The notes under the pieces: generated by a model
Seen by the model: only the letters and a program-made list of their open reading frames with translations
The model's database searches: none
What the model was told of the DNA's origin: nothing
Source of the DNA: Cyanobium sp. NS01
Lineage (GTDB): Bacteria > Cyanobacteriota > Cyanobacteriia > PCC-6307 > Cyanobiaceae
Assembly (NCBI RefSeq): GCF_014280235.1
Contig: NZ_CP047940.1
Location: 62,001 to 126,000, forward strand
DNA length: 64,000 nt
Direction of reading: 5' to 3'
Part shown: piece after piece, positions 14,042 through 56,272 of the stretch
How the letters are laid out: every line of letters starts with the position of its first letter
How positions within the stretch are numbered: position 1 is the stretch's first letter
Translations under genes and position numbers: made by a program

Positions 14042-14755
14042 TCATGAGGGCCCTTGGGGTGAAGTGGTTTCGGTCACCACCCGGTCGATCAGGCCGTATT
14101 CAACCGCCTCCGCGGGGGAAAGGAAGTAGTCGCGGTCCGTGTCCTCGGTGATCTTCTCAAGGGGCTGGCCGGTGTGCTCCGCCATCAGGCCATTGAGGGT
14201 GTCCTTGAGGTAGAGGATCTCCTTGGCCTGGATCTCGATGTCCACCGCCTGGCCCTGGGCGCCGCCGAGGGGCTGGTGAATCATGATCCGGGCGCTGGGC
14301 AGGGCCAGGCGCTTGCCCTTGCTGCCCCCCGTGAGCAGGAAGGCCCCCATCGAGGCCGCCAGGCCGTAGCAGATGGTGACCACATCCGGAGCCACCTGCT
14401 GCATGGTGTCGTAGATCGCCAGCCCGGCCGTCACCGAGCCGCCCGGTGAGTTGATGTAGATCTGAATGTCCTTCTCGGGGTCCTCGGCCTCCAGGAAGAG
14501 CAGCTGGGCCACCAGGGCGTCGGCCACGGCATCGTCGATGCCCGTGCCCAGAAAGATGATCCGCTCGCGCAACAGGCGCGAATAGATGTCGAAGGCCCGG
14601 TCGCCCTTGCCCGACTGCTCGACCACGGTGGGCAGCACCCCGGGGGCGGCGGCGGGCGCCCCGATGGTGGCCTCGGGCCGCCCTCCCATCCAGAGGTTCT
14701 GGATCGGGTGGGTCCGCAGGGCAGAGGGGGAGTGGGCGTCGATCACGCGCGGCAA
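14042..14755 (-). CDS. clpP: ATP-dependent Clp protease proteolytic subunit
   Basis: ClpP (up to 237 aa) is the tetradecameric serine protease of the Clp system. The catalytic triad is visible: Ser in [11 protein letters not shown], His in IMIHQPLGG and Asp in TEDTDRDY. The core starts at [22 protein letters not shown]. The longest start is TTG 14755. GTG 14746 (M-I-D-A-H) and ATG 14689 (M-G-G-R) are alternatives, because the segment before the core is not conserved in the family. Cyanobacteria encode several ClpP paralogues. Its place between tig and clpX suggests this is the ClpX partner. Confidence 0.95.
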
Positions 14756-34232: not shown

Positions 34233-34736
34233 TCAGACCTGCTCAGGGCCGGGTCCGACCCGTTGGGAGGGCGAGGTCTCCAGGGGATGGTGCGCCAACA
34301 GCTGCTGGCTCTCCACCCTGTGAAAGCCGAGCTGCTCGTAGAAGCCGGCACTGTTGGTGGTCATCAGATACACCCGCTCCACCCGCTGCAGGCGCGGATC
34401 GCTGAGCAGGCCCGCCACCACCTGGCGGCCCAGGCCCCGCCCCTGCAGATCGCCCGCCACCACCACGTCCCAGAGCACGGCCCGGCAGACGCCATCGCTG
34501 CTGGCCCGCCCGAAGCCCACCAGCCGCTTGCCCCGCCACAGGCTCACCACCACGGGGCTGCCGGCCAGCAGGGTGCGCAGCTGGGCGTAGCTGCGGTCCT
34601 GGGCCCAGAAGGCGTGGTGGTTGAACAGGCGCCGCAGCTTGAGCAGGGCGCGGCTGGGGCGCAGGCCGGGGCCGAGGCCGAACCAGCGCAGGCCTGGGGC
34701 GCCGGGAGCATGGCGAAGCAGCTGGATCGCGACCAT
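34233..34736 (-). CDS. GNAT family N-acetyltransferase
   Basis: The 167-aa product has the GNAT core in its C-terminal two thirds. [21 protein letters not shown] forms the central strands, and the acetyl-CoA loop is in [15 protein letters not shown] (Q/R-x-x-G-x-G/A). [13 protein letters not shown] is the typical beta5-alpha4 piece. The first 50 residues are basic and could include a short extension. It resembles plastid-type NSI/GNAT proteins, but the substrate cannot be given from sequence. Its start overlaps the divergent rfbA ORF start by 2 bp, so one of the two starts is probably further inside. Confidence 0.82.
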
Positions 34737-35670
34737 GGCAACAACACCATGGCAACATCCTCCCAGTCACCCCGACGCTTTGATCCAGCAGCGCAAGGGC
34801 ATCGTTCTGGCCGGAGGCAGCGGCACCCGGTTGCACCCGATCACGCTGGCCGTGAGCAAGCAGCTGCTGCCGGTGTTCGACAAGCCGATGATCTACTACC
34901 CCCTCAGCACCCTGATGCTGGCGGGGATCCGCGAGGTGCTGATCATCACCACCCCCGCTGATCAGGAGCCGTTCCAGCGGCTGCTGGGCGACGGCCGCCG
35001 CTGGGGCATGGCCATTAGCTACGCCGTGCAGCCCAGCCCCGATGGCCTGGCCCAGGCGTTTCTGATCGGGGAGTCCTTCCTGGCCGGCGCTCCCGCTGCC
35101 CTGGTGCTGGGTGACAACCTCTTCCATGGGCAGGACTTCAGCCCCCAGCTGCAGGGCTGCAATGGCCAGCAGCAGGGTGCCACGGTGTTCGCCTACCCGG
35201 TGCGCGATCCGGAGCGCTACGGGGTGGTGGCCTTCGATGGCGAGGGTCGGGTGCTGAGCATCGAGGAGAAGCCCGCCCAGCCCCGCAGCCGCTACGCCGT
35301 GACCGGTCTCTACTTCTATGACGACTCCGTGGTGGAGCGGGCCCGGCGGGTGGTGCCCTCGGCCCGGGGCGAGCTGGAGATCACCGACCTCAACCTCCAG
35401 TACCTGGAGGAGGGCAGGCTGAGGGTGGAGCTGATGGGCCGCGGCATGGCCTGGCTGGACACCGGCACCTGCGATTCCCTTCATGAGGCGGGCAGCTACA
35501 TCCGCACGCTCGAGCATCGCCAGGGCCTGAAGGTGGGTTGCCCTGAGGAGGTGGCCTGGCGGATGGGCTGGATCGACGCTGAGCAGCTCGCCGGCCTGGC
35601 TGCCCCCTTGCGCAAGAGTGGCTACGGCGAGTATCTGCTGCAGGTGTTGGAGACAGACGATGCAGGTTGA
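34735..35670 (+). CDS. rfbA: Glucose-1-phosphate thymidylyltransferase
   Basis: RfbA makes dTDP-glucose from glucose 1-phosphate and dTTP. The nucleotide-binding signature [16 protein letters not shown] is near residue 22. [53 protein letters not shown] and [10 protein letters not shown] follow. ATG 34735 gives 311 aa but adds 15 unrelated residues and overlaps the divergent GNAT start. TTG 34780 (M-I-Q-Q-R-K-G) gives the usual family length of about 296 aa and may be the true start. The four rfb genes overlap head to tail. Confidence 0.95.
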
Positions 35671-36244
35671 GCCGCTGCGCAGTGCCTCAGGAGCCGTTCT
35701 GGAGGGGGTGCTGCAGCTGAGCCCAAGGGTGTTCGGCGACGAGCGGGGCTTTTTCTACGAGAGCTGGAACCAGCAGACCTTCAATGCCGCCGCGGGCGCC
35801 ACGAGCTTTGTGCAGGACAACCACTCCCGCTCGCAGCAGGGGGTGCTCAGGGGCCTGCACTACCAGCTGCCGCCCCACCCCCAGGGCAAGCTGGTGCGCT
35901 GCGTGCTGGGTGAGATCTTCGATGTGGCGGTGGACATCCGCCGCAGCTCGCCCACCTGGGGACAGTGGGGCGGCGCCCTGCTCAGCGCCGACAACAAGCA
36001 GCAGCTGTGGGTGCCGCCGGGCTTCGCCCACGGCTTCCTCACCCTCAGCCCCGAGGCCGAGGTGCTCTACAAGACCACCGACTTCTGGAGCAGGGACTGC
36101 GAGCGCGCCATCCGCTGGGATGATCCGGCCCTGGCGATCGCCTGGCCCCTGGAGGCCCTGGCCGGGGCCCAGCCCCAGCTGAGTGGCAAGGACGGCGCCG
36201 CGCCGCTGTTCGCCGAGCTGGCCGCGGGGGACCTGTTCCCATGA
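35660..36244 (+). CDS. rfbC: dTDP-4-dehydrorhamnose 3,5-epimerase
   Basis: RfbC (194 aa) epimerises C3 and C5 of dTDP-4-keto-6-deoxyglucose. The cupin core shows the catalytic-His segment in [23 protein letters not shown], then [19 protein letters not shown] and [21 protein letters not shown] contains the expected Tyr. It overlaps rfbA by 11 bp and is joined to rfbD by ATGA, so it is translationally coupled on both sides. Confidence 0.95.
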
Positions 36245-37257
36245 GCAACCCGGCCATGTGGCCGCCGGCCGGTGAGCCCCTCAAGGTGCTGCTCACCGGC
36301 GCCGCCGGCCAGCTGGGCCAGGCGCTGGTTGCCAGTGCGCCGGCGGGCCTGGAGCTGATCGCCACCAGCCGCAGCGGCGGCGAGGGTCTCAGCGCCCTGG
36401 ACCTGGCCGATGCGGCCGCCTGCCGCCAGCTGGTGCAGGAGCTGCGCCCCCACTGGGTGCTCAACGCCGGTGCCTACACGGCGGTGGACCGGGCCGAGAG
36501 CGAGCCGGAGCTGGCCGCCGCCGTGAATGCCGCGGCGCCGGCGGCCTTCGCCGAGGCCCTGGCCGGCAGCGGCGGCCGGCTGCTGCAAGTGAGCACCGAT
36601 TTCGTCTTCGACGGCAGCCAGGGCACGCCTTACCGGCCCGACCAGCCCCTGGCGCCCCTGGGGGTGTATGGCGCCAGCAAGGCGGCCGGTGAACAGGCGG
36701 TGCTGGCCAGCGCCCTGGCGGAGGCAGGCCGCGCGCAGGTGTTGCGCACCAGCTGGGTGTATGGCCCGGTGGGCCGCAATTTCTGCCTCACCATGCTGCG
36801 CCTGCACGCCGAGAAGCCGGAGATCGGCGTGGTGGCCGACCAGGTGGGCTGCCCCACCAGCACCCTCACCCTGGCGGAGGCTTGCTGGCGGCTGATCGCG
36901 GTGGCCAGCGGTGGGGAGAAGGCCGCCGTGTCGGCCGACCTGGCCGAGCCCCTGCCGCCCCTGCTGCACTGGAGCGATGCCGGCGCCGCCAGCTGGTACG
37001 ACTTCGCCGTGGCCATCGGCGAGCTGGGCCAGGAGCTGGGGCTGCTGCAGCGCCAGGCGCGGGTGCGGCCGATCACCACGGCCGATTACCCCACCCCGGC
37101 CCGCCGGCCCAGCTATTCGCTGCTGGAGTGCACCGCCAGCCACCGCCTGCTCGAGCTGCCGCCCCGCCACTGGCGCGCGGCCCTGCGCCAGGTGTTGCAA
37201 CAGCTGCCCTCGTCCCTTTCCCGCCCCCTTCCGTTTCCCGCCGCCGCTCCCCCGTGA
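36241..37257 (+). CDS. rfbD: dTDP-4-dehydrorhamnose reductase
   Basis: RfbD (338 aa) reduces the epimerised sugar to dTDP-L-rhamnose with NADPH. The Rossmann start LKVLLTGAAGQLGQALV is at about residues 14-30. NAGAYTAVDRAE, STDFVFDG and the catalytic YGASKAAGE (Y-x3-K) follow. TSWVYGPVGRNF and PTSTLTLAE are family blocks. The enzyme is somewhat longer than the usual 290-300 aa, with extra residues at the C-terminus. It overlaps rfbC by 4 bp and rfbB by 4 bp (GTGA). Confidence 0.94.
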   Translation: MSNPAMWPPAGEPLKVLLTGAAGQLGQALVASAPAGLELIATSRSGGEGLSALDLADAAACRQLVQELRPHWVLNAGAYTAVDRAESEPELAAAVNAAAPAAFAEALAGSGGRLLQVSTDFVFDGSQGTPYRPDQPLAPLGVYGASKAAGEQAVLASALAEAGRAQVLRTSWVYGPVGRNFCLTMLRLHAEKPEIGVVADQVGCPTSTLTLAEACWRLIAVASGGEKAAVSADLAEPLPPLLHWSDAGAASWYDFAVAIGELGQELGLLQRQARVRPITTADYPTPARRPSYSLLECTASHRLLELPPRHWRAALRQVLQQLPSSLSRPLPFPAAAPP

Positions 37258-38357
37258 ACCACCTCCCCTCCCTGCTCGGTCCCCGCCGCCGCGTGCTGGT
37301 GACCGGTGGCGCCGGCTTCATCGGCGGCGCCGTGGTGCGGCGTCTGCTGCGCGACAGCGAGGCCACGGTGTTCAACCTCGACAAGTGCGGCTACGCCAGC
37401 GATCTCACCAGCGTGGAGGCCGTGCTGGATGAGCTCGGTGATGGCGCCGGGGTCCGCCACCAGCTGCTGCGGGTGGACCTCACCGATGCCGAGGCCACGG
37501 CCGCGGCGGTACGCCAGGCCGATCCGGATCTGGTCATGCACCTGGCCGCCGAGAGCCACGTGGACCGCTCGATCGAGGGTCCGGAGGCCTTCATCGCCAG
37601 CAACGTGAGCGGCACCTTCCACCTGCTGCAGGCCCTGCGGGGCCACTACGAGGGTCTGAACGAGGAGCGGCGCGCCGCCTTCCGGCTGCACCACATCAGC
37701 ACCGATGAGGTGTTCGGCTCGCTGGGGCCCACGGGCCGCTTCTCGGAGACCACCCCCTACGACCCCCGCTCCCCCTACTCGGCCAGCAAGGCCGCCAGCG
37801 ACCACCTGGTGAGCGCCTGGCACCACACCTACGGCCTGCCGGTGGTGCTCACCAACTGCTCCAACAACTACGGCCCCTGGCAGTTCCCCGAGAAGCTGAT
37901 CCCGGTGGTGATCCTCAAGGCCGCCGCCGGCGAGCCGATCCCCCTCTACGGCGACGGCGCCAACGTGCGCGACTGGCTCTATGTGGAGGACCACGTGGAC
38001 GCCCTGCTGCTGGCCGCCACCCAGGGCGAGCTGGGCCGCAGCTATTGCGTGGGCGGCCACGGCGAACGCACCAACAAGCAGGTGGTGGTGGCGATCTGCG
38101 CCCTGCTCGATCAGCTGCGTCCGGCCGGTGCCCCCCACGCCCGCCTGATCACCCCGGTCACCGACCGCCCCGGGCATGATCGCCGCTACGCCATCGACCC
38201 GGCCCGCATCAGCGGCGAGCTGGGCTGGCAGCCGCGCCACAGCTTCGAGGCGGGCCTGGAGGCCACGGTGCGCTGGTATCTGGAGCAGCAGGGCTGGTGT
38301 ACGGCCGTGCGCGAGCGCGGCGGCTACACCGGCGGACGGCTGGGGTTGGTGGGGTAG
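37254..38357 (+). CDS. rfbB: dTDP-glucose 4,6-dehydratase
   Basis: RfbB makes dTDP-4-keto-6-deoxyglucose. The start is GTG 37254, which overlaps rfbD as GTGA and gives 367 aa. VTGGAGFIGGAVV, LAAESHVDRSI, HHISTDEVFGSL and the catalytic YSASKAASD pair are present. NCSNNYGPWQFPEKLIP, YGDGANVRDWLYVEDH and the Tyr/Arg-rich HDRRYAID segment are typical. This dTDP-sugar is the branch point for L-rhamnose and also the usual substrate for NDP-hexose 2,3-dehydratase, which is encoded at 52604. Confidence 0.95.
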   Translation: MNHLPSLLGPRRRVLVTGGAGFIGGAVVRRLLRDSEATVFNLDKCGYASDLTSVEAVLDELGDGAGVRHQLLRVDLTDAEATAAAVRQADPDLVMHLAAESHVDRSIEGPEAFIASNVSGTFHLLQALRGHYEGLNEERRAAFRLHHISTDEVFGSLGPTGRFSETTPYDPRSPYSASKAASDHLVSAWHHTYGLPVVLTNCSNNYGPWQFPEKLIPVVILKAAAGEPIPLYGDGANVRDWLYVEDHVDALLLAATQGELGRSYCVGGHGERTNKQVVVAICALLDQLRPAGAPHARLITPVTDRPGHDRRYAIDPARISGELGWQPRHSFEAGLEATVRWYLEQQGWCTAVRERGGYTGGRLGLVG

Positions 38358-52603: not shown

Positions 52604-53956
52604 ATGCCGCCTGAGTCGCTGCTGTCCTGGTTGGACCATCGCCGCCGGCTCTGCGACATGGATGTGGAGGAGATCCCCTGGCGGCAGTCGCGGGAGTGGC
52701 ACTACAGCGGTGGCGCCCTGCAGCACCACTCGGGTGGCTTCTTCAGCATCGTGGGGGTCCAGGCCGAAACCGGCTCCGGCGTCACCCTGCGCCAGCCCCT
52801 GATCAACCAGCCTGAGATCGGCATCCTCGGCTTTCTGCTGCAGCGCCGCGGCGGCGTGCCCCATCTGCTGATCCAGGCCAAGCCGGAACCGGGCAACATC
52901 GGCCTCTGTCAGGCCGCTCCCTCGGTGCAGGCCACCCGCAGCAACTACCAGCGCCTGCACCACGGCAAGGCCACCCCGTTTCTCGACTTCTTCACCGGCC
53001 ATGCGGCCGCCCTGGTGCATGCCGACAGCCTGCAGTCCGAGCAGGGCACCCGCTTCCTGGGCAAGTACAACCGCAACATGACGGTGGAAGTGCCACCGGA
53101 GCTGCCCCTCGACACGCCGGAGGGGTATCACTGGGCCCCGGTACCCGAGGTGTGTGCCCTGCTGGGCAGCGACTTCCAGATCAACACCGATGCCCGCTCG
53201 GTGCTGGCCAGCTCCGACTGGTCGCTGCTGGCCGGCGGCACGGTGCCCTTCGGCCGCTGGCACGGTCAGGGGGGGATCGGTGAGAGCCTGCTGCGCTCCC
53301 ACGCGGCGCCGGCCGGCCAGGCCCACAGCAGCGAGCAGACCATCCTGGCGGCGCTGGAGCAGCTGCGCCAGGCCTACCCCTTCCAGGTGCGCACCGTGTC
53401 GCTGGATCGGGAGCTGGACTGGCTGGAGGGCCGCCAGCCGCGCCTGCTGGGGCCAGCGGGCAGCTTCGATGTGCGCCAGGTGGCCGTGCGCTCCAGCGAA
53501 CGCGAGGTGCAGAGCTGGGATCAGCCGATCGTGGCCCAGGAGCGCCAGGGCACGGCGGTGCTGCTGGGGCGCCACGTCAACGGAGTGCTGCACCTGCTGT
53601 TCCGCTGCCGCGCTGAGATCGGCTTCCGCGAGGGTTTTCAGTACGGCCCGGCCCTTCAGGATGCCGGCGGAGCCCCCTCGCCGGTGCCGGAACTCGATGC
53701 TGAGGAGCTCGTGCTGCAGGAACTCCTGGGGCGGGCCACCCCCTTGCTCAGCAGCCTCCATTCCGATGAGGGAGGGCGCTTCTACCGCTCCGTCGCCCGC
53801 TACAGCATCGCCCTGATGGCGGAGGACGATGCGCTGCCCAGCTCGCCATCACTGGGCTGGATGACCCTCGGCCAGATCGAGCGGCTGCTCAAGCGCCAGG
53901 GCGTGTTCTCCAATGAGGCGCGCAGCCTGATCTCGATGCTGCTGGCTTACCTGTGA
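52604..53956 (+). CDS. NDP-hexose 2,3-dehydratase family protein
   Basis: The 450-aa protein matches the EvaA-type NDP-hexose 2,3-dehydratases. These remove water from dTDP-4-keto-6-deoxyglucose on the way to 2,6-dideoxysugars, mainly in actinobacterial antibiotics. The two-lobe layout is visible: a first lobe with WHYSGGALQHHSGGFFSIVGVQ, GILGFLLQRRGGVPHLLIQAK and PSVQATRSNY, and a second, repeated lobe with VAVRSSEREVQSWDQPIVAQ and GVLHLLFRCRAEIGF. The LLAGGTVPFGRW segment joins them. The gene starts 80 bp after the sigma factor gene and overlaps the GT2 gene by 4 bp (GTGA). No 3-ketoreductase partner is adjacent. Confidence 0.85.
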   Translation: MPPESLLSWLDHRRRLCDMDVEEIPWRQSREWHYSGGALQHHSGGFFSIVGVQAETGSGVTLRQPLINQPEIGILGFLLQRRGGVPHLLIQAKPEPGNIGLCQAAPSVQATRSNYQRLHHGKATPFLDFFTGHAAALVHADSLQSEQGTRFLGKYNRNMTVEVPPELPLDTPEGYHWAPVPEVCALLGSDFQINTDARSVLASSDWSLLAGGTVPFGRWHGQGGIGESLLRSHAAPAGQAHSSEQTILAALEQLRQAYPFQVRTVSLDRELDWLEGRQPRLLGPAGSFDVRQVAVRSSEREVQSWDQPIVAQERQGTAVLLGRHVNGVLHLLFRCRAEIGFREGFQYGPALQDAGGAPSPVPELDAEELVLQELLGRATPLLSSLHSDEGGRFYRSVARYSIALMAEDDALPSSPSLGWMTLGQIERLLKRQGVFSNEARSLISMLLAYL

Positions 53957-55029
53957 GCGCCGTGCTGCCCCCGGCCGCCCGCGTCAGTTTCGTGATCGCC
54001 ACCTACCAACGGGTGGATGCCCTGCGCAGCACCCTGCGGGCGCTGCAGCTGCAGACCTGTGCCGACTGGGAGGCCGTGGTGGTGGGCGACTGCTGCGCGC
54101 CTGACACGGGCGCCATGCTCGCTGAGCTGGCTGATGCCCGCCTGCGCTACTACAACCTGAGCGAGCGCTTCGGGGAGCAGTCGGGCCCCAATTCCTTCGG
54201 GCTGGCCCTGGCCAGGGCGCCGGTAGTGTGTTTCCTCAACCACGACGACCTGCTGCTGCCGGATCACCTGGAACTGGGCCTGCAGCGGCTTGAGCAGAGC
54301 GGCGCCGACCTGCTGCTGGCGCCGGCCCTGAAGCTGGCCACCTGCCACGAAGCGCCCGATGGTTCAATTCGGCCCGTGTTCATGAAGCGCCTCACGATCG
54401 GCCCCGAGCTCAGGGATCTGCGCCTGCTGCTCCGCCCCGAAGACCTCTACTACGACCCCAGCAGTTTCTGGCTGGTGCGCACGGCCTACGCCCGCCGCGT
54501 CGGCCCCTGGATCCATTCCAGCCGCCTCTGGCGCACCTCCCTGCGCGACTGGCTGCTGCGCGCCTGGCGCCTGGGCGGCCGTTTCGTCTTCACGCCAGAC
54601 CTCGCCGGCATCCGGGTGGTGAGCCACAACCACCGCGGCAGCCGCCATCGCTACAACGCCCTCACCCCGGAGCACCAGCGGCTGATCCGCCTGTTCGAAT
54701 CGCTCAGCCCCGAGCAGCTGCGCCAGCGGCTTCCGCGCAAGCTGCGCCAGACCGCCGCCCAGCTCGGCCGTCCCATCGGCCGGCGTGAGCGGCCTGCCGC
54801 CCTGACCCCGGGCCTGCGGCTGCAGGCGCTGCTCTATCGCCTGCTGGGCTTCGACTGGCAGGTGCTGCGCTGGCGTCGCCAGGGGGTGGAGCCCGGTGCC
54901 TACCACTCCCGGCTGCTGCGCCAGCGCACCGGAGAAACCCTGGCGCTGGTGCCGGATCTGGCCAGGCTGCTGGCCGAACCTGAGCGCTACCGGGAGGCGT
55001 CTGTTCCCGGTTCCCAGCAGGCGCGGTAG
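53953..55029 (+). CDS. GT2 family glycosyltransferase
   Basis: The 358-aa protein starts at GTG 53953, overlapping the dehydratase stop. The N-terminal GT-A fold shows VSFVIATYQRVDALRSTLRAL, WEAVVVGDCCAP, and the D-x-D-like FLNHDDLLLPDHL. GEQSGPNSFGLALA fits the acceptor-side strand. The C-terminal 150 residues are basic and have no recognised domain. No membrane helix is evident, so it is probably cytoplasmic. Overlap with the dehydratase gene suggests it transfers the sugar that the dehydratase helps make. This is inference. Confidence 0.85.
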   Translation: MSAVLPPAARVSFVIATYQRVDALRSTLRALQLQTCADWEAVVVGDCCAPDTGAMLAELADARLRYYNLSERFGEQSGPNSFGLALARAPVVCFLNHDDLLLPDHLELGLQRLEQSGADLLLAPALKLATCHEAPDGSIRPVFMKRLTIGPELRDLRLLLRPEDLYYDPSSFWLVRTAYARRVGPWIHSSRLWRTSLRDWLLRAWRLGGRFVFTPDLAGIRVVSHNHRGSRHRYNALTPEHQRLIRLFESLSPEQLRQRLPRKLRQTAAQLGRPIGRRERPAALTPGLRLQALLYRLLGFDWQVLRWRRQGVEPGAYHSRLLRQRTGETLALVPDLARLLAEPERYREASVPGSQQAR

Positions 55030-55042
55030 GGGGAAGCAGGGA

Positions 55043-56272
55043 ATGGGGGCTAGCTCGGCGGTGGCGTGGAGCCTGGAGGCGGCCACGGAGCGGCTCAGCG
55101 GCCAGGCGCCGCTGCTGCGCAGCCGGCTGCTGGCCTGGTGGCGCCTGGAGGGACGCCATGACCTCCCCTGGAAGCTGCATGCCGATGGCCGCCCGCCCCA
55201 GCCCGGCGAGGTCCTCGATCCCTGGGGGATCTGGGTGGCCGAGATCATGCTGCAGCAGACCCAGCTGCAGGTGGCGCTCTCCTACTGGCAGCGCTGGATG
55301 GCGGCCTTCCCGAGCCTGGAGGCCCTGGCGGGCGCCGAGCAGCATCAGGTGCTGCTGCTCTGGCAGGGCCTCGGCTACTAGGCCCGGGCGCGGCGGTTGC
55401 ATCAGGGGGCCAGGCAGCTGTTGACGCAGGCCCCGCCTGACCAGGCCTCTCAAGGCCAAGCCTCTCAAGGCCAAGCCCTGCGCGACCCCTGGCCGCGGCA
55501 GCTGGAGGGCTGGCTGGCGCTGCCGGGGGTGGGCCCCAGCACCGCCGGCAGCATCCTCTCCTCGGCCTACGACCTGCCCCACCCGATCCTGGACGGCAAC
55601 GTGCGGCGGCTGCTGGCGCGGCTGCTGGCCTGCCCCCAGCCCCCGGCCCGCCAGCAGGCGGCGTACTGGCAGCTGAGCCACACCCTCCTGGATCGCCGCC
55701 ATCCCCGCGCCTTCAACCAGGCCCTGATGGACCTGGGCGCCAGCGTCTGCACCCCCCGCCAACCGCGCTGCGGGGTCTGCCCCTGGCAGGGCCACTGCGC
55801 TGCCTACGCTGCCGGCGATCCCGCCCGCTTCCCCGTGAAGGATGCCGCCAAGACCGTGCCCTTCCAGGTGATCGGGGTGGGGGTGGTGCTCGACGCCGAC
55901 GGCCGGGTGCTGATCGATCAGCGCCTGCCGGAGGGCCTGCTGGGGGGGCTGTGGGAGTTTCCCGGCGGCAAGCAGGAGCCCGGCGAGGCGATTGCGGCCA
56001 CCATCGCCCGCGAACTGCGCGAGGAACTGGCCATCGAGGTGCAGGTGGGTGAGGAGCTGATCCGCCTCGAGCACGCCTACAGCCACAAGCGGCTGCGCTT
56101 CGTGGTGCACCTCTGCCGCTGGAGCAGTGGCGAGCCCCAGCCCCTGGCCAGCCAGCAGGTGCGCTGGGTGCGGCCGGAGCAGCTGGCGGACTTTCCCTTC
56201 CCGGCGGCGAACGCCCGCATCATTGCCGCCCTGCAGGACCGGCTTGCCCGGGGGCTGGTGGAGCCCGGCTGA
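55043..56272 (+). pseudogene. mutY: A/G-specific adenine glycosylase with MutT-type Nudix domain, interrupted by an in-frame TAG
   Basis: MutY removes A opposite 8-oxoG, and the C-terminal Nudix domain acts on 8-oxo-dGTP or recognises the lesion. ATG 55043 opens SAVAWSLEAATERLSG, then WGIWVAEIMLQQTQLQVAL (with the catalytic Glu) and LLLWQGLGY, followed by TAG at 55379-55381. The frame continues unbroken with ARARRLHQGARQ, the HhH LPGVGPSTAGSIL with DGNVRRLLARLL (catalytic Asp), the four-Cys Fe-S cluster CTPRQPRCGVCPWQGHC and an intact Nudix box. The stop sits exactly at the second Tyr of the invariant GLGYYARAR motif. TAC or TAT to TAG is one base change. A sequencing error, a recent nonsense mutation or readthrough are all possible. 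A TTG restart exists at 55397. Confidence 0.85.
55448..55477 (+). repeat. 15-bp perfect tandem repeat inside the mutY reading frame
   Basis: TCTCAAGGCCAAGCC occurs twice in tandem, in frame, coding a repeat of the type SQGQA. It lies 67 bp after the TAG, in the segment between GLGYYARAR and the HhH motif that is shorter in E. coli MutY. Confidence 0.9.

Follow-up and report, generated by a model that had tools for sequence, protein, structure and literature searches.

The window, a stretch of 64,000 nucleotides, carries a solitary pair of overlapping genes that encode an EvaA-like NDP-hexose 2,3-dehydratase (DH) and a GT2 glycosyltransferase. The DH has the family membership, the fold and the catalytic glutamates of EvaA, and it belongs to a separately descended branch in which the dehydratase gene is strictly coupled to a GT2 gene and in which no dedicated 3-ketoreductase (KR) is detected by profile. 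The most economical reading, which we favor tentatively, takes the two genes for a self-contained cassette, spread by horizontal transfer, that would make and transfer a 2-deoxy(keto)sugar without a KR; a shift of substrate within the branch comes second, and the standard 2,6-dideoxysugar pathway third. That distantly related bacteria share such a solitary DH–GT2 pair, as one branch and with no partner KR, suggests a route of deoxysugar synthesis or attachment that has yet to be described. A first-pass annotation of this DNA had recognized the pair and read it as an antibiotic-type 2,6-dideoxysugar system; the observation stands, and the reading needs revision.

The gene pair and its genomic setting

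The DH gene (52604–53956, plus strand) starts with ATG and encodes 450 residues, and the GT2 gene (53953–55029, plus strand) starts with GTG and encodes 358. At the junction (...TTACCTGTGAGCG...), read directly from the sequence, the GTG at 53953 and the TGA at 53954–53956 overlap as GTGA (53953–53956, plus strand), an arrangement that would couple translation of the two genes. A sigma-70 factor gene lies upstream of the pair, and mutY and a pfkB kinase gene lie downstream; Pfam searches of the flanking open reading frames found no other deoxysugar gene adjoining the pair in the window. Both the overlap and the isolation of the pair had been noted in the first-pass annotation, and both hold. 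The genome that contains the window is a single contig of 2.75 Mb, and a search of it found no PF03559 domains other than the two in the DH. The neighboring mutY gene is split by an in-frame TAG at 55379–55381 into open reading frames at 54896–55381 and 55397–56272, and its orthologue in a genome of the same genus (G099) has Tyr at this position. The mutY match of a second such genome (G072) also contains one TGA. These stop codons possibly reflect a mutator lineage or sequencing error.

The assignment of the DH to the 2,3-dehydratase family, proposed earlier from the sequence, is borne out by two PF03559 matches (327 bits for the protein, E = 3.9e-98; 207 and 124 bits for the single domains, cut-off 25). 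Domain 1 (residues 5–202; 52616–53209, plus strand) aligns to the catalytic pocket A of EvaA, and domain 2 (53339–53941, plus strand) aligns to its remnant pocket B. EvaA (4J7G) is also the best solved relative by sequence comparison (E = 6.6e-69). An AlphaFold2 model of the DH (pLDDT 89.6, pTM 0.92) has the double Nudix fold over its whole length and matches EvaA with a Z-score of 40.6 and an rmsd of 2.3 over 395 residues at 33% identity; the next fold other than EvaA is that of the Nudix hydrolases, at Z 9.0. According to a review, from which we take the mutagenesis of EvaA, the active site is pocket A, pocket B being a remnant, and Glu139 and Glu190 are essential (PMC8987622). These glutamates align with Glu95 (codon at 52886–52888, plus strand) and Glu146 (codon at 53039–53041, plus strand) of the window DH, and both positions are Glu in 89 of the 89 sequences compared. 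Because the EvaA fold and both essential glutamates are kept, the DH is likely to be a working dehydratase, as judged from sequence and model. NCBIfam gives no family name for the DH and PHROGs gives no match. Other antibiotic NDP-hexose 2,3-dehydratases include TylX3, OleV, Gra27, SpnO, UrdS and VinD; the comparison made here is with EvaA only.

The GT2 matches PF00535 with 56.2 bits (cut-off 23.3), has no Pfam domain C-terminal to the catalytic part and finds only a weak GtrB-like match in PHROGs. It carries the acidic metal-binding motif NHDD. Structure comparison indicates a GT-A fold and returns AvpGT (Z 20.1), WrtF, RmlT, TarP and SpsA, all tied at Z 18–20. These small GT2s share the GT-A fold with the window enzyme at identities of only 14–26%, and the ligands in their structures are of UDP, GDP or dTDP type, or UDP-glucose was used in their assays. 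Neither donor nor acceptor can therefore be read off from the tied matches. Unlike them, the GT2 of the pair carries signatures of its own, [DE]PxSxW and R[TS][PS]xxxW. In the subgroup that includes the window GT2 these signatures occur instead of DxDLW, the usual site of the catalytic-base Asp, which is present in three GT2s of other pairs (L034, L102, L113); a regular expression for the catalytic base matched only 4 of 41 control GT2s and so is no guide to the presence of the base.

A branch of dehydratases coupled to a glycosyltransferase

In a tree of 89 DHs, a branch supported at 100/100 separates the 13 GT2-coupled sequences from the 76 others (the KR branch), among which are EvaA and the antibiotic and O-antigen enzymes. 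The tree contains 80 loci from named genomes together with genus, phylum and EvaA sequences; the 80 loci are the best 80 of 554 relatives in a wider-alignment scan and are biased towards the query. The coupling label requires one change on this tree, compared with a mean of 12.4 for shuffled labels. The label 'antibiotic-type' is therefore not supported as a statement of descent, since the window DH falls outside the EvaA branch. While it shares with EvaA the two PF03559 domains, the whole-protein fold and both essential pocket-A glutamates, it differs in its branch, in branch-specific residues, in its coupling to a GT2 and in having no KR or other deoxysugar genes nearby.

The 13 members span five phyla and occupy unrelated gene neighborhoods. 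They come from the genus of the window strain (three), Pseudomonas neustonica (58% identical), an Acidobacteria MAG, three Kordiimonas, another alphaproteobacterium, Nitrosospira, a Balneolaceae MAG, Roizmanbacteria and a further member of the window's phylum (G173). A GT2 gene is adjacent in 13 of 13 branch members, one of them a remnant (L040), but in only 3 of 73 loci elsewhere, and a KR lies within 2.5 kb in none of the 13 but in 62 of the 73, the comparison loci being those outside the branch with enough downstream DNA. These contrasts give Fisher p-values of 4e-8 for the KR and 2e-11 for the GT2, with the window genus counted once and with loci treated as independent, which they are not entirely. 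The coupling of DH to GT2 is thus stronger than could have been recognized from the window by itself. The remaining 11 of the 73 KR-branch genes also have no KR detected nearby, so a missing neighbor KR is not diagnostic on its own. A Bacteroidota group within the KR branch (L055, L067, L070, L104 and kin) has no KR detected beside the DH.

Gene order varies in the branch, with DH–GT2 in some members and GT2–DH in others, and together with the unrelated surroundings this indicates that the linkage survives rearrangement. A comparison of the branch neighborhoods found no third gene common to the module beyond close relatives, and Roizmanbacteria is the one member with a further sugar-pathway gene, among the types sought, within 9 kb. 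Conserved fatty-acid genes beside the module are confined to Kordiimonas and kin. A protein of 355–378 residues encoded directly after the Kordiimonas module is conserved in three genomes (L056 11403–12539, L039, L042); neither Pfam nor NCBIfam gives a match for the copy in L056. Pairwise distances among the DHs correlate with those among the GT2s (r = 0.94 for all 12 pairs, r = 0.86 with one per genus, Mantel p = 0.0002).

As a blind check, 369 genomes from the class that includes Nitrosospira were searched with a DH profile; the two new matches both follow the pattern. The DH of G846, a fourteenth branch member, scores 368 with the GT2-branch model and 264 with the KR-branch model and overlaps a GT2 of the module type (198 bits), with no KR in the stretch seen. 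In G823 the DH fits the KR-branch model better and lies beside a KR and a DegT gene.

Within the phylum of the window strain the distribution is patchy: PF03559 was found in 5 of the 151 family genomes, 4 of the 13 genus genomes (one with only a 74-residue remnant) and 4 of the 386 phylum genomes. Family genomes measure about 1.2–3.2 Mb among those listed, which fits the earlier label 'picocyanobacterium'. Two other species of the genus (G099 and G072) carry the pair at the same site, with a DH 78% and a GT2 79% identical to those of the window, so the arrangement is not due to chance. By contrast, in G157 and G151, where both flanks are seen, the gap between the sigma factor gene and mutY is 0.8–1.2 kb and contains no detectable DH or GT2; set against the intact pairs, these empty sites indicate that both genes were gained, or lost, together. 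The remnant of 74 residues comes from a GT2-branch DH and lies on contig 58 of G151 (L027, about 14176–14394) at a site different from that of the window, and the contig also carries transposase-like and glycosyltransferase-like genes.

This patchiness could mean that the pair is what is left of a horizontal acquisition, decaying or neutral, with no present role. Outside the phylum a pair or DH is likewise sparse, occurring in 1 of 298 Pseudomonadaceae and in 3 of the 369 genomes in the class of Nitrosospira, one of these of the KR branch. The Balneolaceae GT2, upstream of its DH (L040 9537–9945), retains its start and end parts, lacks the middle and by eye looks internally deleted. Such a history is nevertheless very unlikely for the window pair, given that three species keep it intact at one site, 78–79% identical and with all branch-invariant residues, and that the DH–GT2 coupling is strict over five phyla.

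Sugar-nucleotide supply and partner enzymes

A complete rmlABCD set lies upstream of the pair in the window, and the supply by RmlA and RmlB cited in the first-pass annotation is confirmed by matches over the NCBIfam cut-offs at 34.6–38.4 kb. All four genes are on the plus strand: RmlA, glucose-1-phosphate thymidylyltransferase, at 34621–35670 (TIGR01207, 487 bits), a possible source of donor; RmlC, dTDP-4-dehydrorhamnose 3,5-epimerase, at 35618–36244 (TIGR01221, 240 bits); RmlD, dTDP-4-dehydrorhamnose reductase, at 36241–37257 (TIGR01214, 291 bits); and RmlB, dTDP-glucose 4,6-dehydratase, within an open reading frame at 36882–38357 (TIGR01181, 417 bits), the protein beginning at about residue 135 of the frame. 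RmlC and RmlD are also over their cut-offs.

EvaA-type enzymes of known pathways pass their product to a partner, in most cases a 3-ketoreductase (PMC8987622, PMC11284099). Searches with a KR profile found no dedicated KR in the window genome or in the other GT2-coupled genomes searched. The best scores in the window genome are 74 and 63 bits, compared with 426–484 bits in four control genomes, at least three of which contributed rows to the profile (20 DH-linked KRs), favoring their scores. Other genomes with the module reach 155 bits at best, with a partial match, and P. neustonica and Roizmanbacteria have no match at 1e-10. The two proteins of the window genome concerned are Gfo/Idh/MocA proteins closest to scyllo-inositol dehydrogenase and UDP-GlcNAc 3-dehydrogenase types. 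The one good DegT protein of the genome matches PseC best, with 253 of 423.5 bits, and is below every curated cut-off.

These results bear on the standard pathway, in which RmlA and RmlB supply dTDP-4-keto-6-deoxyglucose, the DH converts this to a 3,4-diketo sugar, which is then reduced by an unlinked 3-ketoreductase or aminated by an EvaB-type C3 aminotransferase before the GT2 transfers it. The first part of this proposal, made in the first-pass annotation, agrees with the complete rmlABCD set, and the two Gfo/Idh/MocA proteins and the DegT protein could in principle take the later step. Their scores and closest relatives, however, point to other types of enzyme, no dedicated KR is found in any of the module genomes searched, and RmlA and RmlB are undetected in P. 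neustonica. We regard the standard pathway as distinctly unlikely.

RmlB exceeds its cut-off in 15 of the 17 genomes tested, the exceptions being P. neustonica and the Balneolaceae MAG, whose best matches are fragmentary. In the draft genome of P. neustonica, where a gap is possible, neither RmlB (best 108 of 365 bits) nor RmlA (41 bits) is detected, and the dehydratase-like genes looked at are, as read by eye, UDP-GlcNAc 4,6-dehydratase types and GalE. The genes rmlBDAC usually form one operon, and a single assembly gap could hide them all. Because RmlA and RmlB are not detected in this species, dTDP-4-keto-6-deoxyglucose may not be the common substrate of the branch.

A shift of substrate, with the DH acting on another sugar nucleotide or on a sugar already transferred by the GT2, would make both RmlB and a KR unnecessary. 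About 1.5 changes per site separate the GT2-coupled branch from the EvaA side, and the branch has its own markers: Thr195 (Met237 in EvaA, and Met in all 76 others), Trp206 and Asn437–Glu438. Such divergence would suit a new substrate, as would the gene content of P. neustonica, but nearly all main motifs of both domains are conserved in both branches, and the draft state of that genome weakens its testimony. Overall we consider a substrate shift unlikely, if less so than the standard pathway.

For the two-gene cassette, the favored reading, we envisage that the DH would remove the C2 hydroxyl of a 4-keto sugar nucleotide and that the overlapping GT2 would transfer the resulting labile 2-deoxy keto sugar directly to an acceptor. 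A direct hand-over of this kind is suggested by the strict coupling and the co-divergence of the two proteins, and if the GT2 uses the labile keto sugar directly, a dedicated 3-ketoreductase becomes superfluous; if reduction follows at all, a general enzyme would carry it out. The substrate in the window strain would most likely be dTDP-4-keto-6-deoxyglucose from RmlA and RmlB, and the sugar nucleotide may differ across the branch. Against the cassette, the DegT protein and the two Gfo/Idh/MocA proteins, relatives of other types though they are, could act in trans.

A bolder proposal, possible but somewhat improbable, is that this EvaA-fold branch works only with its own GT2 in a mobile cassette, on a sugar nucleotide other than dTDP-4-keto-6-deoxyglucose or on the sugar once the GT2 has attached it, the outcome being a 2-deoxy (keto)sugar conjugate formed with no 3-ketoreductase. 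A widespread branch that is never found with a KR and always with a GT2 would imply direct use of the labile diketo sugar, or else a different chemistry. The branch would also set apart genes that at present share the plain annotation 'NDP-hexose 2,3-dehydratase', and the pair hints at an uncharacterized deoxysugar in some picocyanobacteria.

Related genes in polysaccharide loci, plasmids and viral contigs

Polysaccharide loci, including those of four genomes of the same phylum (G031, G094, G379, G468), contain DH–KR(–DegT) cassettes of the same dehydratase family as the window. Unlike in the window, a Gfo/Idh/MocA 3-ketoreductase adjoins the DH in these cassettes, often with DegT or Rml genes as well; the DHs of G031 and G094 are 31% identical to that of the window. 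An open-access literature search with limited terms found no paper on such enzymes in cyanobacteria or LPS. Phage records contain no match, and 85 plasmid records, mostly from Streptomyces, all match at below 60% identity (about 35% for those listed). Among IMG/VR viral contigs (L152–L165, some of 160–254 kb) there are 14 DH relatives, all of which score better with the KR-branch model. In the stretches examined, a KR accompanies 12 of the 14 DHs. Most of the DHs sit in DH–KR–DegT cassettes, so phages, or mislabeled contigs, carry KR-branch deoxysugar genes.
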